From assembly GCF_018143015.1 (NCBI RefSeq), contig NC_054740.1, positions 45,439,422 to 45,503,421 of the forward strand: DNA of 64,000 nucleotides, read 5' to 3'. The notes below the pieces were generated by a model. The model made no database searches. It was not told the DNA's origin and worked only from the letters and a program-made list of their open reading frames with translations. This stretch comes from Lytechinus variegatus. Taxonomy: Eukaryota > Echinodermata > Echinoidea > Temnopleuroida > Toxopneustidae. Both the position numbers and the translations under genes were made by a program. Within the stretch, counting starts at the first letter, position 1. Every line of letters starts with the position of its first letter. Below, in pieces: positions 12,402 through 62,666 of this stretch.

Positions 12402-13125
12402 AATTCCATTATTTCCACTTCCTTTCTTTTGATCTTCTTTTTTTCGTATGAATGGGAATAATTTTATTTTTATTTTCTGTAAAAAAAGAGTAAGTTTAAA
12501 AAAAATTAAGATATTGCATAAAGATTTTAGATATTATATGAAGAGGAATAAAAGTCACAAATATTATTATTTATTTCATTTTATCTTAATTACCAAAAAA
12601 TAGTCAAGGAGTTTGCATATATATCAAAACCAATTTTTAAGGAAAAAAAGGAAAACAGTTGTTATATTTAGTATAAATACTGGGATGAGTGAGGTAATTT
12701 AGTTTTTTTTTTTATTTAGGAGGGAGTGATAAATTTTGTGAAAATAACTTTGAATCTTTAATTTTAGTTTTTCAAATCACAGGAATGATGGGAGAGGCCT
12801 CTAAATAGGCCTATTCGTATTTTGAAATTGTTTTTTTTTTAGGATATGAAGAAAAGTCTTTCTTGTTTGGGTTTCATAGTAGGGACAGTATATGGGAATG
12901 TGTTTGAGTGTGTTTGTAGAAGTGTATGTGTTGTGTTTGTTGGGGTGAAGTGGAATGATATGTTGGGTGTTGTGTTTTCCAGTTCTGGTGTCTGTCTGTA
13001 TTTATCTTATCCCCATTTTAGTTTAACAGGTTGTTCTGTCATTTTAAAAAAATCGAGCTATTTTGCAGTAACATCCTTATCATTCATATCTTTGTTCCAA
13101 AGTTTTTGTCAGAGGTTTAGACTTT
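12402..13125 (+). other. AT-rich 5' part of the L1/Tx1 element or spacer
   Basis: T- and A-rich sequence without a credible gene. A weak 97-codon frame at 12,846-13,139 has no recognisable domain. By position it could be the 5' UTR or a truncated ORF1/ORF2 spacer of the following L1/Tx1 LINE. Confidence 0.35.
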
Positions 13126-14410
13126 TTGATGTCGGGTAACTTAAAACTAATTTCGGTCAATGTCAGAGGGTTGAGAGATAGAATCAAAAGGAATAAAATA
13201 TTTCAGTGGTGTCAGATGATGGGTGATATAATATTCCTGCAGGAAACTTTCAGCACAAAAGACACTGAAGTTGGATGGAAGGCTGATTGGCAGGGGGAAA
13301 TGTTTTTCAGTCATGGGAGTAACCACAGTAAGGGAGTTATCATAATGTTTAAATCCAAGGTTGATTTTCTCAAAGAAAAAATTATAATTGATAAAGAAGG
13401 ACGATATGTTATAATCAAAGGAAAATGTCAAGGTGAAGATTATTTTGGGCAGTGTATATTTCCCCACAGGGAATAAAGAAAACTCACAATGCAATTTTCT
13501 GTCTGATCTAGATAAAATTTTATCTTCTGTTGTCAGTCAAGAATATTCTCTTATTGTTGGAGGAGATTTTAATATTGCTATGAATCGAAACTTAGACTAT
13601 ATGGGTGGAAGTAATATTTCGAAAAATAGATATAAAGATTCATTGGTTGATTTTCTTGATAGGCTAAATCTAATTGATGTGTGGCGGAAGCGGCATCCTA
13701 ACAAAAAAGAATTTACCTTCAAACAAAATAATCCCTTCGTTCAGAGCCGACTAGATTATATTTTTATCTCCTCGAAATTAGAAAAAGACGTGAAAATTTT
13801 AGACATTTTACCCTCTATCACTCCTGACCATGCTGGAGTTCAGGTCGTGTTTAGTAATTTAGTCGAAAGCTTTGTATATGGGAGATCGTACTGGAAGTTT
13901 AACAGCAGTTTATGCTCTGATAAAGATTTTGTAGACGGGGTAAAGATGAAGATTTCTGAAATCGAAAGAATATGGCGGGACCAAATAATAAGCAAGATTA
14001 AATTTTGGGATTTTATGAAAGTGAAGTTAAGAGAATATATAATGGCATTTTCCCGTGAAAGAGCAAAACTCAGAAAAAATCACATTGAAAAATTACAAAA
14101 AGAAATTAAAGATTTAGAATATCGCTTGACGATCACTTTTCATATTGACATCCAAAACGAAATTAAATTTAAAAAAGAGGAACTAGATAAACTTTTCGAC
14201 TATTCTCGTCAAGATCTAAAGGTCCGTTCAAGAGCCCAATGGTCTGAAGAAGGAGAAAGAAATTCACAGTTCTTTGAACAATTACTTAAATCCAATAAAA
14301 GGAGAAGTGCGATTAAGGAGATTTATAATAAAAATCAGGAAACGGTGCGAGATTGCAAAGGAATTATAAAAATCATTCGGGAGTTTTATAAAAAAATTAT
14401 ATGCATGTAA
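13126..14410 (+). pseudogene. L1/Tx1-type endonuclease, frameshifted
   Basis: Frame 13,126-13,476 begins MSGNLKLISVNVRGLRD (catalytic Asn) and has IIFLQETFS (catalytic Glu). A frameshift near 13,440 moves coding to 13,433-14,410, which has VGGDFNIAMN (Asp-Asn), FVQSRLDYIFIS, ITPDHAGVQVVF (Asp-His), then a coiled-coil-like linker ending RSRAQWSEEGERNSQFF, the conserved pre-RT motif of L1/Tx1 elements. All catalytic motifs are present; only indels spoil it. Confidence 0.88.
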
Positions 14411-14441
14411 AAATCTAGAAACTAGTGATGATATTGAAAAT

Positions 14442-16659
14442 ATGTTTTTTAATGATTTACCTAAACTGAGTAAAGAAAATAGAGAGTTTTGTGAATATCA
14501 AATAACACATGAAGAATGTTTTCAGGCTTTAAAGGAAATGAAATGGAATAAATCGCCTGGCAATGATGGTTTTACCGCAGAGTTCTATTTTACATTTTGG
14601 CCACTTTTAGGGAAAATCATAGTTGAAGCTTTCAATGAGAGTTTTGAAGTTAAAATGTTGTCAAATTCGCAGAGACAGGGGGTAATTACTTTAATTGAAA
14701 AAGAAGGCAAAAATCCTTTGCACATGAAAAACTACAGGCCGATAACTCTTTTGAATGTAGATTATAAAATTTTGTCAAAGGTGATAGCGACAAGGGTGAA
14801 AGAGGTCTTGGGAGATATTATTCATTGTGATCAAGTGGGTTATGTTAAAGATCGTAATATTGGGGAAGCAGTTCGGTTAATTGATGATATGTTTTTTCAG
14901 TCTTTGTATCAACCCTTAGGTTTTTTAATTGCAGTGGATTTTGAAAAGGCATTCGATTGTATCTCTCATAAACTTTTATTCAAAACTTTAGAACATTTCG
15001 GGTTTGGGAAAAATATGTGTTCTTGGGTAAAAACTCTTTATAATAATGTTAGTAGTTGTGTGTTGAACGGGGGGCATTCTACGGGATATTTTGAAGTTAA
15101 TAGAGGAGTAAGGCAGGGGGATCCACTCTCTCCATATTTATTTATCATAGCGATTGAATTATTAGCTCATTATATTAGGAGAGATGTTAATATTAAAGGG
15201 ATAAGTTTTGGGAAACGGGAAATAAAACAAGTTCTGTATGCAGATGACATTACATTGTTTTTAAAAGATATGAATTCGATCCATAGAGTAAAGAAAATAT
15301 TCTCAGATTTTGAAAATTTAAGCGGATTGAAGATTAATATGGATAAAACAAACTTTTTATGGTTGGGAGAAGAAAGAGATAGACCAGGTTTACCACTTCT
15401 TGGACATTGGTTACAACATATCAAAATTTTAGGGGTATATTTCGCACGAGATTGTAAAGTCAAAGATGATTTGAATTATAAGGAAATCTTGAGTAAAATT
15501 AAAAGACTTATTGGTTGGTGGAAACAAAGAGATCTTACAATGTATGGTAAAATAAAACTTTTGAAAATGTATGCATTTTCAAAATTAAATTATGTTTCTT
15601 CACTGATGACAGTCCCAAAAGACGTTTTTAAGGAAATAGAAAAAATTTCTTTCAATTTTATTTGGGGAGGAAAAGATAGAATAAAACGCAAGGTCCTATA
15701 TCAAGACTATTCTGTTGGAGGACTTAGAGCTCCAAATTTTGAGGTCTTTGTTAAAACCCAACGGATAATGTGGATTAAACGTTTACTAGATGGAGGGGAA
15801 AGCTCGGGTTGGAAAGCAACCTTCGAATATTTTTTTATTTTTTTAGGTGGTCGAATCATATTTCTGTGTGATTATGATACGAGTAGAATGAATTTGAAAG
15901 GTATACCATTATTTTACATAGATATGCTGAAGGCATGGCACGAATTGGATAAGTGTAGACATTTTGGTGGGAAAAGTAATCCCATTATTTTTAATAACAA
16001 GCGTATATGCCTCAATAATAAGACCATTTTTTATATTGAATTATTTCAGAAAGGTATAGTTAAGGTCTCGGATATAATAGTTGGAGGTCAATTAAGACCA
16101 GTTTCATACTGGTATAATAAAAAATTTTCATCTGAAAACTTGCTCAAAATTGAAAAGATATTTTCAGTAATAACAGAAGAGTGGATACAAGGTGATTTTA
16201 TGGAAATAGATACAGACAACTTTGAAATTCAATTGATGATATGTGGGCATGTTCAGAAACTATGTGATATAAAATCTAGACGAATATATGACCACTTCAT
16301 TGAAAATTTTCAAATTGATTATGTATTTCATGTTACAGATGGGCAATCCGAATATGATTTGGGAATGGGGGAACTGAAAGAAGTATTTCTGAGACTGAAA
16401 TGTGCAATGCTATGCAATAAACACAGAGAATTTCAATACAAACAATTACAAGGGGTTTTTTCCTTAAAAAGGGAACTTTTTAAATTTGGTTTTGAGACAG
16501 ATAATTTGTGCTCCTTTTGTAAAAAAGAAGTTGAGACTTACCAACATCTATTTTTGTATTGTCCTGAAGTTAAGCAATTATGGGAAGAGATGAGTAAAAT
16601 ATTTCAACTGAATGAACTTGACGCTGACAATTGGAAAACAATTTTCATGGGGATATCTG
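14442..16659 (+). pseudogene. L1/Tx1-type reverse transcriptase
   Basis: Long intact frame. Pre-RT MKWNKSPGNDGFTAEFY, NYRPITLLNVDYKILSK, motif A LIAVDFEKAFDCISH, motif B GVRQGDPLSPYLF, catalytic box LYADDITLFL, then LSGLKINMDKT and WWKQRDLTMYGKIKLLK, the thumb typical of L1/Tx1. A C-terminal zinc-binding motif CSFCKKEVETYQHLFLYC follows (CxxC...H...C). The RT core has no stop, so it is younger or better kept than its host LINE A. The frame runs on to 16,691, but the last ~10 codons belong to LINE A. Confidence 0.9.
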
Positions 16660-17061
16660 GAAATACTACAAGGGTAGCTGTAATAAACTGATCCAAAATT
16701 AGCTCTCTATCCTATAATCGATCCTGAACGAGGAAATCAGATGAACCAGCCTCCCCCTTTTCCGTGGAATGAGTATTATCCGAGGTCTCGACGCAAAGCA
16801 GCAGAGAATTTCCGAGAGACTGGGTAGATTGTCTGTCCACGGCGAGGAAGCTCTTGAACCCCAGACACCAAAAGATAACCCAACAAATGAATCCACTACA
16901 ATCTTAAATCAACAACCCACTCAGAGAATTAATTCCGTTGAAAATGATCCTGAGGAACATACATGTATGGATAATGAATCATTTCCACCCTTCGAACCCG
17001 ACGGTGGAATCTCTCTGAACAAATGTCAGACTGACAGAAATGAGATCATGTAATATAAAGG
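16660..17061 (+). pseudogene. LINE A ORF1 C-terminal tail
   Basis: After the L1/Tx1 similarity ends, a Pro/Arg-rich tail reads QPPPFPWNEYYPRSRRK, then shifts frame at about 16,810 into the frame ending at 17,053 (RLSVHGEEALEPQTPK and onward). Such tails follow the SGNH domain in CR1-type ORF1 proteins. The next segment is the LINE A endonuclease, which fixes its place in the element. Confidence 0.6.
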
Positions 17062-32919: not shown

Positions 32920-34747
32920 TGGAAACAAATTAGCATTCAAAAAACAGATGCATCAATGTTTGATTTTGTTCATTACAAAAATCACTTATGTCTTGATTAA
33001 TAATTCCGATTTTATGTAAATAACGATTTGTCGACACTTTTCTGTGTATGAATTTAAATTGGAAATTTCTTAGTTTGTTATCTATTGACGATTTGTATAT
33101 CAGGGTAAAACGAGAATCCCAAATTTCATTGTTTGATAATTGGAGTGAAAGGTCGTTTCCCATCTGTAACATTGATCTGTCTCTGACACGTCCAAAGTAT
33201 AATTATTTATAAAATGAGAGTTACATAGCTTAGAAACTTTTTTGTGTTTAAGGAAATTACGTAATCGATCGTCGTGTGGTTCAAAACGTGTATTCTGTTT
33301 TATGTATTTGTTTCTGATAACTCTTTTCCATTCATTTGGTATGGCAGATAATAATGAATTATACATCATGATGCATGTGTAACCGTAGTTTTCAACTATT
33401 ACCTCAAAAGATTTTAAAAGTCCATCTTCTGTTAAAAAATCGTAAATAGTGTTTAAAGAAGATTCGGACCATCTTTGAATATAAAGAGGTTTTCCATCGA
33501 CTAAAATGTGTGAATTGAACCACAGAGGTTGCGACAGTATTTCCTTAAACTTAACAGGATTAAAGTATCTGTAATATGACCATGAACTCAATACATCATT
33601 CCAAAAAGTTTCGGTACATGGATTGAATAATATATGATTTTTGCTAATATTCCAAATCGTAAATTTGCTCTCACCAATGAAACGAACAGATTCTTTAAAA
33701 AAAACACTTCCATTTCCCATTGTTATCATCTAAAAATCTTTTGACCCATGATACTTTAAGTGCTTGATTAAAACATGACAAATGTAACATTTTTAGACCA
33801 CCATCTTTGTAGTCATTGTATAAAAGAGAACGCTTAATTTTGTCACCTTTCTTACTCCACAAAAAACTAAATAATAGCTGTTGCATTTCGATAAAGAAGG
33901 TCGATGGTGGGTCTGAAATAATGCTTAAAAGATATATTAGTTTTGGAATGACCAACGTTTTTATTACTACTATCTTGCCATACAATGTAAGAGATCTACC
34001 ATTCCAAATGTTTAACAGAGATTTGATCTCATCCAGTTTTGGTTTAAAGTTTAAATAAAAAAAAGTATGTTTATCGCTCAATGGGATTTTTATGCCTAAA
34101 TAAGAAAAATAATCTACAGGCCATTGAAAAGGAATGTCTTGGCATAAATACATCGTACAATTCACAAGTTGAATAACATTACACTTTTCAACATTTACTT
34201 TCAATCCAGACATTTCTTTAAAAGTATTTAATACAGATATGCATTTTCTTAAGTTTTGTTCGTTGGGTTCAAGGTAAATGGTTGTATCGTCTGCATATTG
34301 ACTTATCTTTATTTCAGTATAATCATGTATTTTTAAACCACGGATTTCTTGATTTTCTCGAACTAAACAACCTAAAATTTCAACCACTAAAATAAAGAGA
34401 TATGGCGAGAGCGGACAACCTTGTCTTACTCCGCGGTGTATTTCAAAAACATTGGAGGAGTAGCCATTATTTATTACACTTCCTTCTATATGAACATAAA
34501 GAAGTTGAACCCAACGAACAAATTTTTCACTGAAACCAAACCTTCTTAAAGTTTTGTATATAAAAGACCACTCAACTGTATCGAACGCTTTTTCAAAGTC
34601 AATACAGAGTGCAAGACCACGAACATTATTCTTTTCACAATATTTTTGAATATCAATAAAAAGTCTTATATTTTCGCCAATATAACGTCCTTTGAGAAAA
34701 CCACATTGATCATGATTTATGAGAAGTGATATCACTTTTTTTATTCG
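32920..34747 (-). pseudogene. LINE 2 reverse transcriptase and C-terminus
   Basis: Frame 34,735-33,695 holds HDQCGFLKGRYIGENIRL, LALCIDFEKAFDTVEW (motif A), GVRQGCPLSPYLF (motif B), the box QYADDTTIYL, MSGLKVNVEKC and WNGRSLTLYGKIVVIKT. Further frames 33,729-33,100 and 33,172-32,930 carry the thumb and a zinc-like CNEQNQTLMHLFFEC. Three frames are needed to read it through. Confidence 0.88.
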
Positions 34748-34755
34748 GAAAGAAA

Positions 34756-35786
34756 TTATTTTTGCGAGAATCTTATAATCACTATTAAATAAAGAGATTG
34801 GGCGCCAATTTTTGAGTGAAAGTAAATTTTTCCCTTTTTGAGTGTAATAATACTTCTCCTCATTGAATGAGGTAATATATTCTTTTCAAAACTTTCATTA
34901 AAAACTAAGCATAGTAAAGGATTTATTTCATTCCAAAAAGTCTTGTAAAACTCAATTGGCAACCCGTCACTTCCTGGTGACTTATCATTTGCAAAAGACA
35001 TGATCGAATCATAACACTCCTTCTCTGTTATCGTTGATCCCAACATATTTATGTCACTCTCATTTACAGTTGGTATATTTAAGTTGTTCATTGATATATT
35101 CCTATTCAGAATGTTCTCTTGAGATGAATAAAAATTAGCATAAAAATTTCTTTCTTCTTCAAGAATATTTTTTGAATTAAAAATAATACCTGTATCTGTT
35201 TGGAGCCGAAATATACATTTCTGTTGGTAATTTCTTTGTTCTAAGTTTGCAAAGTATTTGGTATTTTTCTCTCCCTCTGCGATCCATCTCACTTTCGATC
35301 GCACGATTGTCCCACGTACAACACCTTCATGTAATATTTCAAATTCTCTTTTTTTCTCTTCTAATTTGTTTGCTAATTCATTATCCACACAACTTTGAAT
35401 GATGTCATTTAAATAATTGATTTCTTTTTCTAAACTTTTCATTTTCTCCTGGTCTTCCCTTTTCTTTTGTTTTGAGATTTGTATTATCTTCTGCTTTATT
35501 TTGTACTTCAAAAATTCCCAGCGTTGTAAGGGGTAAAGATTATCATTTTCATTCAAAATTGAAACGATTTCTTTTTTAATTTTCTCGACAGTATCAGTAT
35601 CAGCTAGAAGAGAAGTATTCAATTTCCAGAAACCTGGTCCCCTTTTAGTAATTGATTTTGTTAGGACTAGTGATACCAACGAATGATCTGATTTATAACC
35701 ATAGGTAATGTCACTTGTTACAACAGAAGACAATAAGGTTTGAGAAATGAGGAAATAATCGATTCTACTTCTGAATCTTAGAAATC
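34756..35786 (-). pseudogene. LINE 2 endonuclease end, linker and start of RT
   Basis: Begins FLRFRSRIDYFLISQ, the pre-C-terminal endonuclease motif, then YGYKSDHSLVSLVL (catalytic Asp-His), a coiled-coil-like linker, VRWIAEGEKNTKYF (pre-RT motif) and DKSPGSDGLPIEFYKTFW. The frame breaks just before NYRPISLFN-type sequence near 34,790. The first residues at 35,786 continue the endonuclease that stops at 47,844, with the same spacing between the TW and RID motifs as in the 13.1-14.4 kb element. Confidence 0.85.
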
Positions 35787-35879
35787 GTAGAATCGTAGAA
35801 TTTTGAAAAGGACTGCAAATTCTTAAGATGGAAAGCTTTCATGTTGTAATGTGTTTAATAGATACTTGAATAGCAGGAG

Positions 35880-43799: not shown

Positions 43800-44255
43800 A
43801 GCCCTAGTATTAGAATTTAGATAAAACAAACAGAATAAAAAAAAGAAATGTAGAAGTAGCATTTTTGTGAATCTTAAATAAATTTGCATATCTAGTGAAT
43901 TTGATAATTCTGTGTAGAAGTTTGGAAGCCCCCCCCCCCCCCTCCAGCCCTATTCGATAAAACAGAATAAAAATCTGCTAAGGAATGCTTTGAATGTGTC
44001 GTAGATTTGCACATCTACATGTACTTGTACTGAATTTGAGAAATCTGTTTGGATGGACCCATTAAAATAAGCTCTATTAGAATTTAGATAAAACAGCATA
44101 TAAAAGTAGAAGTAGATTTTTTGTGAATTTTCAATAAATTTGATTAAATTTGCATATCTAATCAATGTAGAAGCAGCATTGTTTATGAACTTTGAATAAT
44201 TTTTCATAAATTTGCATGTGTTTGAATCTGTGTAGAAGTTTGGTGGAGGGAGAGA
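43800..44255. repeat. Two to three diverged copies of a ~130 bp AT-rich unit
   Basis: TATTAGAATTTAGATAAAAC, GTAGAAGTAGCATTTTTGTG and TAAATTTGCATATCTA, with CTGTGTAGAAGTTTGG at the end, recur at 43,806-43,930 and 44,068-44,240. No gene. The repeat abuts LINE 3. Confidence 0.65.
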
Positions 44256-44261
44256 AATCCA

Positions 44262-45850
44262 TTGAAAAGACAATTTACCTTCACTAAGAATAATCCATTT
44301 ATGCAAAGCAGATTAGATCATTGGCTAATATCAGATGATTTGGTAAATGTTGTTATTAGGTGCAAAATTTTACCATCTATAGCTCCTGACCATTCAGCTA
44401 TATTTTTGTTTTTGCATGATAAAACTGAGAAGGAAATGCGTAAAAAGAATGGTTCTTATTGGAAATTTAATAATAGCCATTGTGGTAATGTAGAATATGT
44501 GAAAAAAATGAAAATAGAAATACTTACATTAAAGGAGAAAATAAAAACAGAAGTTAGAGATAGAAGAGTTGTATGGGATTATTTGAAAATGAAAATAATG
44601 TCTTTCACAACAACTTTTTCGAAAAAAAACTGGCTAAGGAAAAAAAATAAAAAAAAGAATCTCTCGAAAAGGAATTGGAATGTTTAGAAAGTAGTTGCGT
44701 AAATTCAGTAGATGAAGAATTAATTAAAAAGAACTTGCAGACAGTTACGATTACATTAATGAAGGTATTAAAATTCGGTCTCGTGCGACATGGTACGAAA
44801 GTGGAGAAAAGGATACAAGGTACTTTGGTCAACTATTACAATCTAACAAAAAGAAAAGTACTATAACAAAATTAGTTAAGGTTAACGGAGAAATTACTGA
44901 AAATGAGAAGGAAGTTTTAAATGAAATTAAATCAATTTATACCCATCTTTATGCTAGGGAATACACGGAACATTTTAGGGATTTCTTTAAAAATGTACCA
45001 TCGTTATCATCTGAAGATTCTGAAAGCTGTGAAGGGGATATACTAGAAGAGGAGTGTATTTCGGTACTGAAAGAAATGAAGCAAAATAAATCCCCTGGAA
45101 ACGATGGGTTAACAGTTGAATTTTATTGTACATTTTGGGCTGAAATAAAGGATGTATTGATTGGGGCATTCAATGAAGCTTTTGTTCTTGGAGAACTTTC
45201 GGCATCACAAAAACAAGCAATTATTATTTTATTAGCTAAAGAAGGGAAAGACCCACATTACGTAAAGAATTATAGACCCATTTCGTTATTGAATACAGAT
45301 TATAAGATCATATCCAAAGTTTTAGCAACATGAATTAAAGAGGTTTTGGAGAGCGTTGTGTTAGCAGATCAAATAGGATTTATTAAAAACAGGAATATAG
45401 GAGAAGCTATCAGATTAATTGATGATATGCTTTTTCATACGTTATATAATAATATCCCTGGGTATATGATAGCAATTGATTTAGAAAAAGCCTTTGATTC
45501 GATATCCCACAAATTTTACATCAAACATTAGGTTCATTCGGTCTTGGCCAGCAATTTCGCAAATGGGTCAAAATATTATATACAAATAGCCAAAGCTGTA
45601 TTTTTAATGGGGGAGATTCTACTAGCTATTTTCATGTTGAAAGAGGGGTAAGGCAGGGAGATCCGCTTTCACCATATCTTTTCATTTTATGTATTGAAGT
45701 ATGAGCGCATAATATAAGATATAATAATGATGTTAAAGGAATTTCCTTTGGAAAGGAAGAAGTAAAACAGGTTATGTATGTAGATGATATGTCTATATTT
45801 GTCCGAGATCTAGATTCAGTAAAAAAGTAATAGAAATTTTAGAAAAATTC
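44262..45850 (+). pseudogene. LINE 3 endonuclease end, linker and RT core
   Basis: RQFTFTKNNPFMQSRLDHWL and APDHSAIFLFL are the end of the endonuclease. After indels at 44,630-44,690 the linker continues; RT reads MKQNKSPGNDGLTVEFY, NYRPISLLNTDYKIISKV (stop at 45,331-45,333), ADQIGFIKNRNIGEAIRL, motif A MIAIDLEKAFDSIS, motif B GVRQGDPLSPYLF and the box MYVDDMSIFV, where the usual Ala is Val. Inactive through stops and frameshifts. Confidence 0.85.
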
Positions 45851-45856
45851 AGAAAA

Positions 45857-47410
45857 GTGTCAGGACTCAAAGTTAATAACGATAAGACGAAGGTTTTATT
45901 ATTAGGTTCCTCCCAAGGAAAATCATATGATTTATGTTTTGGCCAAAAGGTGGATTTTATAAAGATTCTCGGTGTATTTTTTTCTTTAGATGTAGAAGTA
46001 AAAGAAAGATTGAATTATAAAGAAATATTAAGTAAAATAAAGAAGTTGTTAAACTGGTGGAAGCAAAGAGATTTAACTTTGATGGGCAAAATACAACTAT
46101 TAAACCAGTTTATCTTTTCAAAATTCATATATGTGGCATCTCTCACACCAATTCCAGAATGGGTTTATGTTGAGCTTGATCAGTTGACTTTTACTTTTTT
46201 GTGGGGTGGCAGAAGTAAGATTAACAAAAGAACGATGTATTTAGATTACCATCAAGGTGGCTTGAAAATGATGAATTTTCAATGGTTAATAAAGGCACAG
46301 AGAGTTATGTGGATTAAAAGACTAAAAGAAAATAATGCAATGAAATGGAAAAAATATTTCAATTATGCCACAAAACATCTGGGAGGAAATTTTATATTTT
46401 CATGTGATTACTTGCTTGGATTGTTGGAGATAGCATTGCCGCAATTTTATAAAGATTTGTTAGAAGTATGGATAGAGACGAAGGATTTTCGTTTCAAATC
46501 TGAAACATTTAAAGGAAATGAGATATTTTTTAACAATAAATTTGTACGAATTGAAGGGAAATGCATATTTAACCAAAAAATATATGAAAAAAATATTTAC
46601 AGATTGAAACATATTATGGATTATGATGGAAACGAAAGGCCATTTTCGTACTTCCAAAGACAGGGTTTAAACATAAATGATTTTCATTTGATAGAGTCAA
46701 TTTATAAAACTTTTCCAGTCAGCTGGAAACGAAATATGAAAATAGATAGCAAAGAGGCTTCTCTTAGGGAAGAAATATCATTTATATCTGGAAAAAGAAT
46801 TTTGTCAATGGAGGAGTTAGTATCTAAAAACGTTTATGCAAATTTTATGAAATGCAACTTCTCACTACCTGATGTTTTCGAAAGATTAAAAAACAAATAT
46901 AGTTTCTCTTATGAAAAGATTGAACACATTTTTATGAGACCAAGACAATGTACTCTGAACAGTAGATTAAGAGAATTTCAGTTTAAAATGTTACACGGCA
47001 TTGCTTACACAAATCATCACTTGTTCCGTTTTAAAATCTCACAAAATAACCTTTGTTGTTATTGTAAAAAAGAGGAGGAAACATATCGCCATCTTTATTT
47101 GGAATGTGCATATGCTTGTCTGGTTTGGGATAATTGTAAGGAGATGTTTGGTTTTATTTCTACGGGCAATTTAAGCTGGGAGGAAATTCTTGTAGGGGTA
47201 GAATTAAAGGACGAAGGAAAAGAACGCCTAATCAATCACTTTTTAATCTTTGTTAAATTTTTAATCTTCAAAGGGAAGGAAAAGGGTGCACATATAACCA
47301 TGGATGAAATTAAAAGGAAATTTAAAGAAGAAGAATGGGAAGAAAGAAGGCTGGCGCTAGGTAGAGGCAAGATGTCTCTTCATTTAAGGAAATGGGAAAA
47401 TCTTGATTAA
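45857..47410 (+). pseudogene. LINE 3 RT thumb and C-terminal domain
   Basis: A 517-codon open frame: MSGLKVNNDKTKVLLLG, WWKQRDLTLMGKIQLLN, the zinc-binding CCYCKKEEETYRHLYLEC near residue 400, and a Lys/Glu-rich end to the stop at 47,408-47,410. It shows the full-length C-terminus missing from the related copy at 16,659. Confidence 0.9.
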
Positions 47411-49420: not shown

Positions 49421-51055
49421 AGACACCAGAAAAGGCCGCTTTAAACTGTATAGTCAGGCAGGCTCACTACCTTATTTTATTCAATCTGTAAAGACAGAAA
49501 ACGGAAAAGCATCATAAACATATGTCCAATGATTTGACACAAAGAATTATCTGTTGTCATTACATACCAGAAATACTTCTTTTCTTCTTTAAAACAACTT
49601 GAAATATAAATATAAATATTCATCTGTATATAGTGGATGATGTAAACAAATACTAAAACCTCATCTATATAAGAAAAAACGGTTTATAATTAATCCACAT
49701 AATCTTTAAAACGTCTTGAAAAGAGACTAGAAATAAACCTCATTTGCATATGTATTTGCATTAAGTCTTAGTCAAATGCTTCATAAATTTCCAATAAATC
49801 AGCTTTCCGTTTACAATATCATATTTCTTAACTTACTATTAAATAACACAACAAACAAATATATCCGTTATTAATTTCAGTTATATCATGAATGAGCCTA
49901 ATGATAACTTGCCAAAAAGCTTTATTAACCAGATAAATAGTTAAGCCCGACTAAATTTATAAGAAACCCTTTAAAAACATTCAATATATATTCTCAACTT
50001 AACAGGCATCCTTCTTAGCTAGCGTTTGCAAACTAACATTAAAAACACAAAAGAAAGGCAACGGGTGACCCTGAACTGACCTTGCATAAATTAAAGCTTC
50101 GTTTGTTTGACAAAACTACTGAACTAAAAGTTCCTAAAAATCGGATAATTACTCAAACTGTCATTGTACAACCTTTTAAATGTGCCTTTATACAACTCAC
50201 CTATCTTTGGTAGAATTAAAACGAAAACAAACGTCAATCAATACATGAGACCACGCCCATATGCCTGCCCTAACGAATCTCGCCTATGACGTCATCACGC
50301 CGCTAAATTCAACATTTGTTCCCTTCAAAAACTCAAATATTCATACGACTCTCATATTACTTTTCCTGGCCAAATCGTGGTTTTGGGAACCACTCGTAGA
50401 TTTGTGTACGCGCACTTGTGTACAAAGTGAATGGAGGTGGAAATAGGGAACCATGCGTGTGACTGAATAAAGCGCTGCTGTATGAAGTGAACGGTGGTTC
50501 CCAGTATCACGATAATGCCCTTTTCCTGAATTAATCTATCAAGCTTATGTCTTTATAACGTTCAAATATACTCTTAAAACTTCACACTTCGGCTCATAAA
50601 GTACAACTACCTTGCCGAATCGAGTGCGCACCGCAACTCAAGTTCATTTCACATCCATTTACTGTACATTACACAGACACGCATACTGCGAGCGTTTATT
50701 ACACGCCGCACGTGTTTATTATAGTTCAAGAATCTCTACACTACCTTAAACGTACTTTTTCTTAATACTCTGTGGAAATTATCTTTATATCTTATTACTT
50801 ATATAATATATAGTATTTTAATCATCAAACTTACTTCTTGGGCGGCATTTCCTAGCCAACTTGATACAAATGAAGAGACTTTCGTCCCTCGAACGTCAGT
50901 GCTTGACAAAATCAAAAATGGCATCTAAAATTTACACATTCATGAGCAGAATCGGCAAAAGATAAACAAAAACTTCATGGTAGCACGAAAGTGACAAAAT
51001 CGAACTTGAAAAATACAAGGAGCAAAAATCGACAAATTACAAAATATAGTTTCAA
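49421..51055. mobile_element. ~1.6 kb non-coding insertion in LINE 2 ORF1
   Basis: The ORF1 coiled coil is interrupted between FDDATEF (below 49,420) and RIQDVE (above 51,056). The inserted sequence is AT-rich without coding frames. It contains a perfect CRE (TGACGTCA, 50,287-50,294) and, on the minus strand at about 50,835-50,853, ATG for MPPKK followed at once by a splice donor GTAAGTTT. It might be a solo LTR or a captured host promoter/first exon. The right end has a short palindrome GGTTTGCTCTGCAAACC. Confidence 0.45.
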
Positions 51056-51269
51056 GGTTTGCTCTGCAAACCATTCCACATCCTGAATCCTTGTATCCAT
51101 CCTCTCAAACTTAGTTTCAATCCTGCTCATTCTCTCTGATATGGTATTTATATCAGTTTTAATCTCATCAAGCACAGACACCTTCTCAAGAATGTTACGT
51201 AACATCGTATCTGTATCGACGTTCGTACTTGCAGTACGTACCTTTTCCCGGGGCGTGGCAGTCGTGTTA
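51056..51269 (-). pseudogene. LINE 2 ORF1, coiled-coil start
   Basis: Minus strand. TLRNILEKVSVLDEIKTDIN-like heptads, SERMSRIETKFERMDTRIQD. Upstream the frame is open (TATPREKVRTASTNVDTD) to the edge of the DIRS-like element at 51,274, beyond which it resumes at 56,685. Confidence 0.7.
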
Positions 51270-51274
51270 GAATT

Positions 51275-51432
51275 CTATTACGTAACATTCGTATAAGTCT
51301 TCAGAGGATAGCATTTCCCAGGTGTTAGGCAGTGAAATTCACACAATGGAATTCAAAGCAATCAAAATTCCACACAGGACCAGTTCTCTATAAAAGGCCC
51401 TAACCAATGAATAGGAACCATCTTTTTCAAGT
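51275..51432 (+). repeat. DIRS-like left inverted terminal repeat with TATA box
   Basis: Outer 40 bases (CTATTACGTAACATTC...) then the shared inner part. CTCTATAAAAGGCCCTAACC at 51,387-51,406 is a TATA box, so transcription would start here and run rightward. Confidence 0.85.
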
Positions 51433-54400
51433 GTGACGGCAGTGACTAAACATCCTTATTTTCATGGTGAGTATTGAGGAGACGTAAGCTTACGGTCTCC
51501 TTCAGCCCTGCTCTCCGCTGGGGAGCAGGCATGGAAAGCCGCCTGGAGTTGAGTTAAAGCGGCAGCTATCATGGCAGTCTGATATTTTAAGACATGCCAG
51601 TCATGCTGACTTGGGCAGGAGGGCTCCTCCACCCATATTTTTGGTATGTGAGCCATACCTTTCTACATCAGGGCGCTGATGCCCTACACTGTTTCTTCAT
51701 TAGGGCGCTGCCCTATCTTATCTACTAGAAATTTCGCTGATTCAGCACACCTTCACATCATTTTTAATGATTACAATAATTACTCTGTAAACTCTTTGGT
51801 TTATCGAATTAAGCCGTATGCTGCTTTGACATCGAACCATTATGGATTGCGATCCTTGCCCTTATTTCAACCTGATTTTGACTTTGATTCATCCGAATAA
51901 TTGCTTCCAACTTTTCTTATTTGGCATTGCCATATATTTCTACAATACTCGCTCTAATGTGTGGTTATACCAACCAATAATAGCAAATGAGTTGGACCAA
52001 GGGATTTAAATTAACCCTTGCTAAATTTGTCGTCGAGTAATTGCTATATACGCCTATATGCCAATCGCATTGTGTACAGAATTTTTCAATACAACCCCGG
52101 AGCACCGATAATGCTGATGGCAGTATTTATTTCCATATTAAAATCACAATTATATAATAAAATACGGTGGATAGCCCACATTCAGCGTGACTGTGCCAGT
52201 CACGCTGGTCTTCCATGGGGTCTAAAACATTTAACATTAACATATAAGTTAGACACAGTATAACCAGATTAAAATAACAGATGTACAGAGGATCATGGTC
52301 ATGGCCAACTGTGTACTGGATTTACTTTTTACTGCTCTGACAGTCGATTTTGTTTTGACCATCCCAAAAATGGAGAGTTTCTTACTCTATAGATGCTACC
52401 ATTCGTTTGCCATAGAATGACATGAATCTTTCGCCATATCATAATGGGTCGACATTATGAACATGTGTATCTATGTATAAACATTGTTATGCCTACATTT
52501 TGAATTCTCTCTCATATGGATCCTTTACAAGAAACATTTTCGTTTAAACATGTTTAAAAAGCATCGATTTGGAGTATAAACTGACATTGTTATATAACAT
52601 GGACTGGCGCAGGCCTCTCTTTATATCTTAGAGTACATTGTACACAAAAGGCATTTTGCACAACGCAAGGAATCTTATTCACTGTTTGTAAAAATGATGA
52701 TCGATATGCTCTTGTGTTAAATTTTAAACAAGTTCATCAGTTATACCAAGAGCTTCACAACAGCGATATTATCACTAGATATCTCACAGCTCGCATGGAC
52801 AATGCTTAGACTTACTACTGTGCCATTATACATTTTGGCATAACCCGATTTGTTAGTGGGCAATGCATAGTCATTTGATATAGGTTGCTGTTAATCTTGG
52901 AAAAGCCAAGTTTTGACACGAAATTCAACTATCATCCATTTCTTGCTTGTAATATGAAGCCTTACATTCCTAAAAGGAAAAAAGCATGATGAAAAATGTT
53001 TCATTAATACATATTAAATGATTATGGATCTGGAAGGAACTTCATGTTGAAATGAAAAAATTGAATTGCCAAGATGCAAATCTTGTCTGAGGTTTACCAG
53101 ACAACAATAGATAATACAAGCAAATTCATTCCAATTAGTAGTTCATCCGTGCAAGGCGCTTTAATGAATAGCTCACTACTATTTTTACATTAAGAGGTAG
53201 CTAGTATATTTTCACCAGACTTTGTAAATAGGATACATGCCCAAGCATGAACATTCTTTTGCTGATAGACCTTCCCATTCATTCATGTTGTCCTTGACAA
53301 CCGACATAGAAGATTTGTCAGACCGTGGACCTAAATACATGTACATGCATGTACATTATTATTGTTATCTATTCATTGAACAAAGAAGAAACACAATTTA
53401 TACAGATCGGATTCTCTAACTTAGTGACAAAACACCTAATTATCCTTTCCAACGCAAGCGGTTGATACAGAATATTCCAAATTCTCGAACTGTACAACAA
53501 GTTGGATTAAGTAATCTTTAAACCTTTCAAAAAATTAGAATGTATGCGGACATGCATTCCGCCACTTTTGGTATTTGGTAAAAACACTGAACAGAGATCC
53601 ATTGTTAGTCTAATCAAAGTTGAAATTTCTTTCACCCTGTACTCATCTTGTACAAGACTATCAACTATGAACCATCATCCTTATGCCATGCAAAAATATG
53701 ATATACATGGATTCTCCAGAGAACGTATTACTGAATGTTAACAATCAGCCATCTGATATAAAAGATTGCATTAGCCATTATGATCCCTAGAAGATGCTAC
53801 TTTTATTTGTGCATTTGTATCGCTAAAATTGATATTTTTTCATTAATAACTCCTCGTTCATGAGGGTAATACCAAAAAATGAATTTGTGATGATAAATAG
53901 TTTGAAAAAAAAAGGAATAACAATAAAACTGGGATTTCTGAAAGCGAGCTCTCGAGGTCTGTTTCACAGGGGAAAGAAACATCCTACTTACGAAAGCGAC
54001 TGGCGCGTATAATCTGGAGAGATTGAAGAGCCCATCATATTCAACAACAACAACAAACACCTGATTTGGCACTTCTAGGACCTAACCTGGTTGGTTCTAT
54101 TACCGTTTACATTTTATTATTCAATCAGACGACAATATTATGTCATGTATCAAAATGGAGATCGAAGTGTCATCATTTTTGGACTCGTATTCTCAAATTA
54201 ATTTCTGACAATTATCAACATTAAGATTTATTACTTATTTTGCCAGTCAACTATGCATATACTCCAACGGATACTCCACAACCTATGATTGATCTCAATC
54301 ACTGCTAATATCGTTAGCATGTTAATAGGTGTCGCGATCATGTTTTGTAAGGTATCTGACCTGCTAACTACCAACATAAATGTTTAGGAATGGATTTCTT

Positions 54401-55885
54401 GCACGGCTTCTATGCCCTATAACAATAATTTTTTAAAACATGTTTGCTTTTCACAAACAAATGAATACCAATATCATTAACTATTCAAATTGATACGTAT
54501 GTTTGATTAGAAGAATAACCTCCAATGTATCTTTGTCAGCTGTGCAGTAAACTACATCCCCGATCTCGACCACCACTATGCTGATAATCAAGTATTATTG
54601 AATTAAGGCAATTTACTGCCTACAAATCCTTGTTGAACTCCTTGTCTCAGTTACAGTGTTTGACAGCAATAAAACTCTTTATCATTTGTAATGATAAAAT
54701 TTATTAATCGAACAAAATTTGAAAACATGAAATTTCATTTAATCTAAACCATGGTTTTCAAGTAATCCTTTAGGAAGCTTTTCTTTTCAAGTACGTGTAT
54801 TCTTACAGCTATATTCATTACAGCCTTTTTTATGGACTTCCAATTCGGGAGAATATGCTTTTACTTGGCACACCAAATTACAAGGAAGTTTGATTCAATT
54901 TCATTGTACCATTGTTGAATGTTAATCTTTCTTGGACAATCATAAATTATATCTTCTTATTTTGACGTCAATAATTCTGCTCTTCCATGCTGACAGCAAT
55001 TACATCCAACGTACTCAAACGCTGAATGATCCATCCAAATTTTACTTTCAAGAGTTGTCATGAAAGTTATTGTGTATGATGAGAGAAGTATTTGAACATC
55101 ACTACTTTGTTCCCTTCAAGTATGAATTCTTTTTTGTTGATTGCTTTTTCTAAACTACTCTTCTCAAGTTTAATGTGCACAACCATGACAGGAGTACTTT
55201 CTAGTACTCACCCATTGGAACCCCCTAAAAATATCTATTAACCTTGTCTCATATAAAAAACTTAGAGTTTTTACACTCATACCATCTGACCATGATGCCT
55301 CGGTAATTGTACCTCGTTTCATCATGAATTAACTATCTCCTTCACCACTTAACTTTTTGATTTGATCATAGAAAAATATTTTGACTTTTGATATCTGAAG
55401 CAAGATATTATTTTCATCCTACGATGAATCTTCCAACTTTAGTAATTCTTATCTTAACGTCGATTTTTATATATCTGGCTATTCCAGTGAGACAATTTTC
55501 GCCTCTACTGCAGCTGATGCAGAAAACCTTAAAATGATATAAAATTATCTGAGAATATTTCACTTTTATATCAATGGATTATATAGAAGTATGATATGTA
55601 CTTGATTGGAGATAATTTGCAAGATGAATCGATGAGGAATATTCCAATGATTAATTTCCTCGAATTGTTCATTGAGAAATAATTGATTAATAAATCGTTG
55701 GCTGATTCAGTCTTCCTTAATTACATTTTCATAATGTCAATTCATTCTGAAGTGTTATAAATATTTCTAATTTGGCAAGTGGCAACATCGTATGACCATA
55801 TTAAGATAACACGATCTTTATGAGATCATTATGGGAGATAACTTTCAAATTGTTTGAAATTGACTTCTGATGTGTGGCTTTGAAC
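51433..55885 (+). other. DIRS-like element interior, no recognisable ORF
   Basis: AT-rich with only short frames, none with RT, RNase H, gag, methylase or recombinase motifs I can recognise. A GC-richer stretch with small inverted words is at 51,470-51,720 (GGTCTCCTTCAGCCCTGC; AGGGCGCTGATGCCCTA and AGGGCGCTGCCCTA). Confidence 0.5.
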
Positions 55886-56002
55886 ATGCTATCCTCTGAA
55901 GACTTATACGAATGTTACGTAATAGAATTCGTAAATTATACAAATAGTATGAAGTATAATTGGAATTCTATTAGTAATAATGAAGTATAAGTCGAGGAGG
56001 AT
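55886..56002. repeat. Internal complementary region (ICR)
   Basis: 55,886-55,925 is the complement of 51,275-51,314; 55,926-55,930 is AATTC; 55,931-56,002 is the complement of 56,613-56,684. By eye there is no mismatch. In DIRS replication the ICR templates the joining of the two ends into a circle. Confidence 0.9.
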
Positions 56003-56127
56003 CCCACCCTGCATCAAAACAATTTTATTCCCTCCCGATTATACAGAAGTCAATTTTGAGATGCAGAACTTATTTTGTGGGAATATAGCGCCATCTATCT
56101 AGAAATACTCTATTCTGAGGCACATTG

Positions 56128-56349
56128 TTATTATCATTATTATCCCCGACTTAAGCACGAGCTGCCTTTTAGCGCTCAGTACAATCAAGGGGTTGATCCT
56201 GTCGGATATACCCATTCGTCTCACCTGGGTTGAGTGCAGCAGATGGTGGGTATATTTATTGCAGAAGGAAAACACATCATGCCTGGAATTCGAACCCAAG
56301 TCCGTCTGATTGAAAGACGAGAGTCTTAACTACTAGACCACGGCGCCCC
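56128..56349 (-). mobile_element. tRNA-derived SINE inside the DIRS-like element
   Basis: Minus strand head GGGGCGCCGTGGTCTAGTAG with A box TGGTCTAGTAGTTAAGAC (56,323-56,340) and B box GGGTTCGAATTCC (56,285-56,297), tRNA-Glu/Asp-like. The central domain contains CTGCACTCAACCCAGGTGAG (about 56,217-56,236), and it ends in an ATA/AT-rich tail (GATAATAATGATAATAAC). Shares the central domain with the SINE at 62,361-62,666. Inserted between the ICR and the right terminal repeat. Confidence 0.85.
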
Positions 56350-56484
56350 ATTAAAACACATACAACAAATTTCTACAAACCAAATGATTATTTGGTGTGT
56401 ACATCTTGAAAAAATTACTTAAGTGAATTGGGAAGTAATCCTGTTTTTAGTTGTTTACAAGATCTTTGTGTTTTGTATGACCTT

Positions 56485-56684
56485 AGCCGTCTTTGAAAAG
56501 ATGGTTCCTATTCATTGGTTAGGGCCTTTTATAGAGAACTGGTCCTGTGTGGAATTTTGATTGCTTTGAATTCCATTGTGTGAATTTCACTGCCTAACAC
56601 CTGGGAAATGCTATCCTCCTCGACTTATACTTCATTATTACTAATAGAATTCCAATTATACTTCATACTATTTGTATAATTTAC
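56485..56684 (+). repeat. DIRS-like right inverted terminal repeat
   Basis: Reverse complement of the left repeat across the 122-base inner part; its outer 72 bases (56,613-56,684) are longer than and different from the left outer end, as in DIRS elements. Confidence 0.88.
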
Positions 56685-56775
56685 GAATTGTTCGCTTTTC
56701 CCGTTTCGACGTCACATTTTTCCTCAGAAGTTGCTTGTCGTTGTCTCTTAAGTCTCACTTTTACCCATCTTCAGT
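56685..56775 (-). pseudogene. LINE 2 ORF1 N-terminal fragment
   Basis: Minus strand: an open frame reads RLKRQRQATSEEKCDVETG up to the DIRS-like element and joins in frame with TATPREKV at 51,269. An ATG (MGKSE) lies a few codons upstream but in another frame. Beyond 56,775 no LINE sequence is recognised. Confidence 0.5.
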
Positions 56776-57043
56776 TATTTTATGACTCACGATGCAGAAA
56801 ATAGACTTTTGGCCGAAATTTCAAAGTTAAAAACGGAGCTCAATAAAAAAAAACCCTGCTACTTAGCTAGACATCAAGGGCGCCCTCGAATTTTTTTAAA
56901 AGTTGCGAGCGAGCATTTTAAAAAAGAAAAATCAAATTTTGTGATAGATTTCGACAAAATATTCAAAATGATATATTTCACCCTTTACTTTCCTTTTCCT
57001 TTTTTTTCTTGGTCGTGATTTTTTTTTTTTTTTTCAGGGAGGG
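56776..57043. other. Spacer (possible LINE 2 5' UTR)
   Basis: No convincing gene; ends in a T run (57,020-57,034). Confidence 0.35.
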
Positions 57044-62360: not shown

Positions 62361-62666
62361 TAATAATAATAATAATAATAATAATAGAGGTATATTTACC
62401 CAGGGTAGCCACTTCAGTTCCGAAAACTGTTCTCCCAGCGGGCCCTACTGTTATTATTACCCGGCTAAGCTAGGCTACCTATTCAAGTGCACACAGCTTT
62501 TTGAGGAATAACTTCCTGCCGGTACCCATTTACCTCACCTGGGTCGAGTGCAGCACACTGTGGATGCATTCCTTGCTGAAGGAAATTACGCCATGGCTGG
62601 GATTTGAACCCACGACCCTCTGTTTCAAAGTCCGAAGACTAATCCACTGGGCCACGACGCTCCACC
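62361..62666 (-). mobile_element. tRNA-derived SINE with (ATT)n tail
   Basis: Minus strand: head GGTGGAGCGTCGTGGCCCAG, A box TGGCCCAGTGGATTAGTC, B box GGGTTCAAATCCC (62,599-62,611). The central domain CTGCACTCGACCCAGGTGAG (about 62,537-62,556) is followed by AAATGGGTACCGGCAGGAAG, and a unique part leads to the (ATT)n tail (62,361-62,386). Same superfamily as the SINE at 56,128-56,349, different head and 3' part. Confidence 0.88.

Follow-up and report, generated by a model that had tools for sequence, protein, structure and literature searches.

How could a retrotransposon that encodes no recognisable protein have been copied recently? The question is raised by a 5.4 kb element in a stretch of 64,000 nucleotides of Lytechinus variegatus (hereafter the window; contig NC_054740.1, here C1:45439422-45503421, in an assembly of 869.6 Mb and 33 contigs). 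An earlier note, made from the letters alone, had read this place as a non-autonomous DIRS element. Shared ends together with an internal complementary region (ICR), further copies lacking open reading frames (ORFs), coding relatives and empty target sites all support that reading. We consider it very probable that the window element is a DIRS1-like retrotransposon of the non-autonomous kind and that, among the known copies of a long-lived lineage without ORFs, it is one of the two youngest. It does not count as an autonomous member of the group, since the coding regions for gag, for reverse transcriptase (RT), RNase H and methyltransferase (MT), and for tyrosine recombinase (YR) are absent. 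Because these genes are missing together with recent copying, we infer that the lineage was mobilised by proteins acting in trans. Its last copying was recent and probably used borrowed enzymes.

The architecture is that of DIRS1-like elements: inverted terminal repeats (ITRs) with an extension, and an ICR that complements the two outer ends, which meet at a circular junction of 3 bp. The inner ITRs are complementary at 126 of 128 bases, while the left and right outer ends are exact complements of the two overlapping parts of the ICR (45/45 and 77/77), inverted matches that are far beyond chance. Taking on the left the part outside the inner ITR, the ends of the window copy agree with its own ICR at 34/34 and 77/77 bases. 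The unequal outer ends and the 117-base internal region (40 + 5 + 72) complementing left end, core and right end, as described in the earlier note, were thus borne out base for base, and the identical layout was found again at an unrelated genome locus. GAATT does stand at both edges (51270-51274 and 56685-56689) and, inverted, in the ICR, but it was rejected as the crossover core. Indeed, the left edges of other copies read AAATTC, CAATTC, GCATTC, TGATTC, GGATTC and so on, and their right edges read GAATT followed by varied bases; as the bases before ATT vary among copies, ATT is the common part. The GA of the left GAATT therefore belongs to the target, and the element is better bounded from ATT to ATT than at 51275-56684, as first proposed. 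The account of DIRS1-like elements in PMC3266345 reports similar traits: ITRs extended on the right, ICRs that add up to 85-130 bp, a 3-bp circular junction, end trinucleotides that are most often ATT, and integration that leaves the target unduplicated. The elements surveyed there differ in having been detected by their RT, MT and YR domains, of which the window element has none.

The absence of a recognisable ORF from the interior, also claimed at the outset, was confirmed. The longest listed ORF inside the element has 89 amino acids, and no stop-to-stop frame of at least 120 amino acids lies within it. A Pfam scan of the six frames of 51433-55880 gave no match above a curated cut-off (the best, DUF551, with E 0.15, is below its own), and 22 frames taken from three coding DIRS loci found nothing in the same stretch by tblastn (best E 0.023). 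Frames of a coding DIRS family, here called family B, found nothing at E 1e-3 in seven ORF-less relative loci (L035, L036, L039, L041, L042, L056 and L057), while as a positive control they detected a coding element on contig C17 (L033) at 3e-141; even in L056, a copy 19% apart, no DIRS coding similarity was detected. Substitution phases were even, that is without codon periodicity, in eight of nine interior comparisons, while coding controls showed periodicity in three of three (p 8e-9, 2e-4 and 0.010). Indels in multiples of three (54/225) were not in excess. Hidden or decayed coding frames in the interior were rejected on the tblastn, Pfam, phase and indel results. A decayed standard DIRS ORF set, the alternative raised in the earlier note, was thus not seen for the interior, although a short broken leader and gag-start remnant does remain near its left end. 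This remnant aligns with the C17 element at a score of 101 (300 shuffles: mean 29.4, maximum 46), the matched part of C17 having been called a gag start by eye from its frames. The leader has no likeness to family B (score 42, shuffles up to 54). A conserved RNA structure in the leader was also considered and rejected, its z of -2.39 being no better than those of two other interior stretches (-2.86 and -2.46).

Copies elsewhere in the genome were sought with 51270-51432, 52000-53500, 54250-55850 and 55860-56150, leaving 51433-51999 and 53501-54249 outside the queries; 40/51, 40/102, 13/13 and 40/407 candidates were scored, respectively, and copy counts are lower bounds. The left-end query gave at least 40 matches. 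At least nine places, window copy included, carry some of the interior, so that further ORF-less copies exist, and in other copies, too, the terminal repeats are accompanied by the internal region. A second complete copy lies at C1:29679556-29693537, its halves matching the window at 98.75% and 98.5% and separated by 8.57 kb of inserted sequence near window 54137-54144. The copy on C6 (5.287-5.313 Mb) is nearly full length and cut up by insertions. Partial copies stand at C13:30.65, C3:24.26, C2:18.67-18.68 and C10:12.34, and short pieces at C10:4.60 and C19:3.80; other loci hold fragments of end or ICR only. With ITRs and ICR excluded, the second C1 copy differs from the window copy by 36 substitutions in 4856 sites (0.7%), which, like the near-identity of the inner ITRs, agrees with the initial view that the window copy is not old. 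The seven remaining copies show 5 to 20% substitutions (C6 244/4491; C13 188/1758; C2 100/982; C3 171/1367; C10:12.34 240/1275; C10:4.60 51/401; C19 52/259).

Six of the nine places went into an unrooted tree, which was built on 54351-55727 and 55764-56484 and gave tips of 0.4% for the window, 0.3% for the second C1 copy, 3.8% for C6, 6.0% for C13, 7.3% for C3 and 16% for C10:12.34, the last including any root branch; two internal branches, of 1.3% and 4.2%, had support 100, and one of 0.9% had support 51. Such unequal tips mean that the copies were inserted at various times, from a source that lacked ORFs throughout. The copies also share passengers: a SINE-like insertion (SINE, short interspersed element) is common to the window, C1:29.68, C6, C13 and C3 copies, and a repeat of about 172 bp to the window, C1:29.68 and C6 copies, the C2:18.68 copy reading straight through its place. 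Together, unequal tips and shared passengers show that an ORF-less source was copied over time. Copies with the common non-coding interior and passengers sit at unlinked places, and the lineage has multiplied as a non-coding form.

The target sites are consistent with this. Using the joined flanks of the window copy as query, we found 11 matches, of which seven span the junction uninterrupted, and the empty sites that the earlier note had proposed to look for therefore exist. The five that were fetched are continuous with both flanks, four carrying one GAATT and one GAGTT. The insertion of the window copy is precise, with no duplication or loss beyond the core. Empty sites were assessed for the window copy, and the other copies were judged by reading their junctions. 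The target is itself a repeat (window 50975-51205 and 56690-56837) with a frame that, by eye, resembles the coiled coil of ORF1 of a long interspersed element (LINE).

Table 1. Coordinates of the element and its parts in the window.
Feature	Position	Strand	Remarks
Whole non-autonomous DIRS1-like element	51272..56689	+	ATT to ATT
ATT core, left edge	51272..51274		inside GAATT 51270-51274; two preceding bases vary among copies
Left outer end	51270..51314	+	exact complement of 55886-55930
Left inner ITR	51304..51431	+	126/128 complementary to 56491-56618
TATAAAA inside left ITR	51389..51395	+	motif also in L033, L047 and L031
Leader and gag-start remnant of C17-type coding element	51475..51680	+	alignment score against shuffles
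Interior without recognisable coding capacity	51681..55859	+	genome matches: ORF-less relatives, 172-bp repeat, two short pieces
Dispersed repeat of about 172 bp	52119..52293		35 other places listed
ICR	55886..56002	-	complement of right outer end and left outer end joined at GAATT
SINE-like insertion between ICR and right ITR	56139..56360		tRNA-like look by eye
Right inner ITR	56491..56618	+	minus-strand TATAAAA at 56533-56527
Right outer end	56613..56689	+	exact complement of 55926-56002; terminal ATT 56687-56689

Which element could have supplied the enzymes? Coding relatives with similar termini and with RT and tyrosine-recombinase frames, as anticipated, were found in two families. The closest, at C17:821437-828239, resembles the window element in its ends and ICR and also contains stretches of gag, RT and YR whose frames are broken. 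Its in-register alignment with the window covers 51271-51454, 55860-56011 and 56485-56689 (left ITR 90%, ICR 93.5%, right ITR 89%); the two have only the left ITR, leader and gag start, ICR and right ITR in common, the rest being unaligned, and the remaining C17 matches consist of reciprocal ITR/ICR pairs together with a SINE-like copy that lies beyond the C17 element. The C17 RT region has no other assembly match above 69% (17/17 candidates scored), and gag or YR remnants of its family, 84-91% alike, stand at C9 and C16. Family B has a YR at four places, 98-100% alike and free of stops, and at locus L050 both RT and YR frames are open (RVT_1 2e-24, Phage_integrase 8e-8). With these open frames, family B, more distant than C17, is a candidate helper. 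Near the core it departs from the window at two positions among the first 20 on the left and at one among the last 19 on the right. Over the termini, however, it is 85-87% alike against 89-94% for C17, with which the window shares its first 60 left bases without a difference. That family B rather than a C17-type element was the helper is thus a tentative proposal, and we lean against it. Somewhat more doubtful still is the idea that, after the C17-type family decayed, the ORF-less lineage kept transposing with the enzymes of another DIRS family, with termini about 86% alike; if true, DIRS RT and recombinase would act across families wherever ITR, ICR and ATT core are present. Separately, one DIRS recombinase query gave at least 136 assembly matches (136 of 487 candidates scored), many without stops, and DIRS elements look abundant and partly young in the host genome.

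The published DIRS model suggests how borrowed enzymes might act. A TATA box in the left ITR would start an RNA lacking the outer left end, and a DIRS reverse transcriptase supplied in trans would copy this RNA. The ICR would bring the two ends together and template the missing outer ends, the circle would close with one ATT between right and left end, and a DIRS tyrosine recombinase, again in trans, would exchange this ATT with a chromosomal one. Four loci, namely the window, C17 (L033), family B (L047) and C1:29.68 (L031), have TATAAAA at 118 to 127 bases from their left edge. From its position inside the left ITR, an RNA starting downstream would lack the outer left end, which the ICR could restore. 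Both ITRs of DIRS-1, the DIRS1-like element of Dictyostelium, are described as acting as promoters (PMC4482531); according to PMC5633606, experiments have not fully proven the replication model with its restoration of the ends by the ICR. Templating is also suggested by family B, whose ends and ICR differ jointly from those of the window at all 11 differing sites (right 7/7, left 4/4). The lineage itself probably arose when about 4 kb of unrelated sequence took the place of most of a C17-type coding sequence; the origin of this interior was not found in the genome searches with 52000-53500 and 54250-55850.

Several observations weigh against the reading of the window element as a young copy of a trans-mobilised, ORF-less DIRS1-like lineage. 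The element is nearly whole at only three places. No intact close helper was found, the closest coding family having a single RT-bearing copy in the assembly, and that one broken. Some edges deviate from ATT (AAGTC at the left of an old locus, L048; GAACT at the right of the C6 copy). End and ICR change jointly less often in the C17 family, at 6/11 sites (C17 3/5, C9 3/6), and seldom in the ORF-less copies, at 2/17 (C1 0/2, C13 1/5, C6 0/3, C4 1/7); decay after insertion could explain the latter count, yet this count gives no support for templating there. Finally, the phases of the C3 copy are uneven (26, 53, 41; p 0.010, uncorrected for nine tests), as much as in the weakest coding control (p 0.010), and the substitution-phase test by itself is not decisive. 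The C3 phases and the 2/17 sites leave our confidence as it was, because the interior and passengers that the copies have in common and the empty sites are unaffected by either.

The same observations have to be set against other explanations. It is very unlikely that a tyrosine recombinase alone moves the element as an excised DNA circle, Crypton-like and without reverse transcription. The window insertion itself does show a recombinase-type junction, an excised circle would carry the same ATT, and the few joint changes in ORF-less copies would fit; however, copy number rose, and the complete agreement of ICR and ends in the window copy and the joint change in family B are hard to explain without templating. 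We give hardly any credence to independent decay of several coding DIRS copies, with the window copy as one old relic: while coding relatives with similar termini and the uneven C3 phases speak for it, the copies have a non-coding interior and passenger insertions in common, two of them are only 0.7% apart, and no DIRS coding similarity was detected even in the 19% diverged L056. Equally implausible is the spread of one insertion by segmental duplication or DNA-level recombination, since the two young copies, although both on C1 and 15.8 Mb apart, match over 500 bp of flank per side by only 10 to 21 bases and have unlike left junctions (GAATTC against AAATTC), and the window copy was inserted precisely into a repeat that still occurs elsewhere without it.

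If mobilisation in trans is true, DIRS proteins are not confined to their own RNA. The element would then be a parasite of a parasite, encoding no recognisable protein while retaining the ends and internal template on which elements of the rare DIRS type depend. Functional ends that enclose a long non-coding interior are also found in LARDs, large non-autonomous long terminal repeat (LTR) elements such as Dasheng, which differ in having LTRs and a DDE integrase instead of ITRs, ICR and tyrosine recombinase. The ORF-less lineage may also be taken as a natural deletion experiment marking the cis parts that DIRS mobility needs: the left ITR and leader are still present in a 10% diverged copy (C2), and the ICR and right ITR in 11 to 13% diverged ones (C13, C3). 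A likeness exists with SIRE of Trypanosoma cruzi, a non-autonomous counterpart of VIPER in which only the ends of a YR retrotransposon are left; VIPER differs by its split direct repeats and SIRE by its size of about 0.4 kb, and the description in PMC6681497 leaves open whether SIRE moves with the help of VIPER. Among the matches listed from the open literature, none described a non-autonomous DIRS family with ITR and ICR; subscription papers, Repbase and Dfam, where the element may be catalogued, lie outside this search.

Some minor observations concern the insertions and the rest of the window. The 35 listed places of the 172-bp repeat have 82-92% identity, and its insertion in the element shows no clear target duplication. 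ARAGORN and Rfam found nothing in the window, SINE-like insertion included; another copy of the SINE-like sequence, 73% alike, lies at window 62514-62664. The 8.57 kb insertion in the second C1 copy (L031 3424 to L032 4490; C1:29682424-29690990) is flanked by an 8-bp direct repeat, ATTATATC, and holds another DIRS with RT and YR frames on the minus strand, its YR 43% alike to family B; the family B frames match L031 and L032 only in this nested insertion. Elsewhere in the window, 13072-16691, 33100-35838 and 44226-47410 contain long frames that, by eye, resemble LINE endonuclease/RT proteins.

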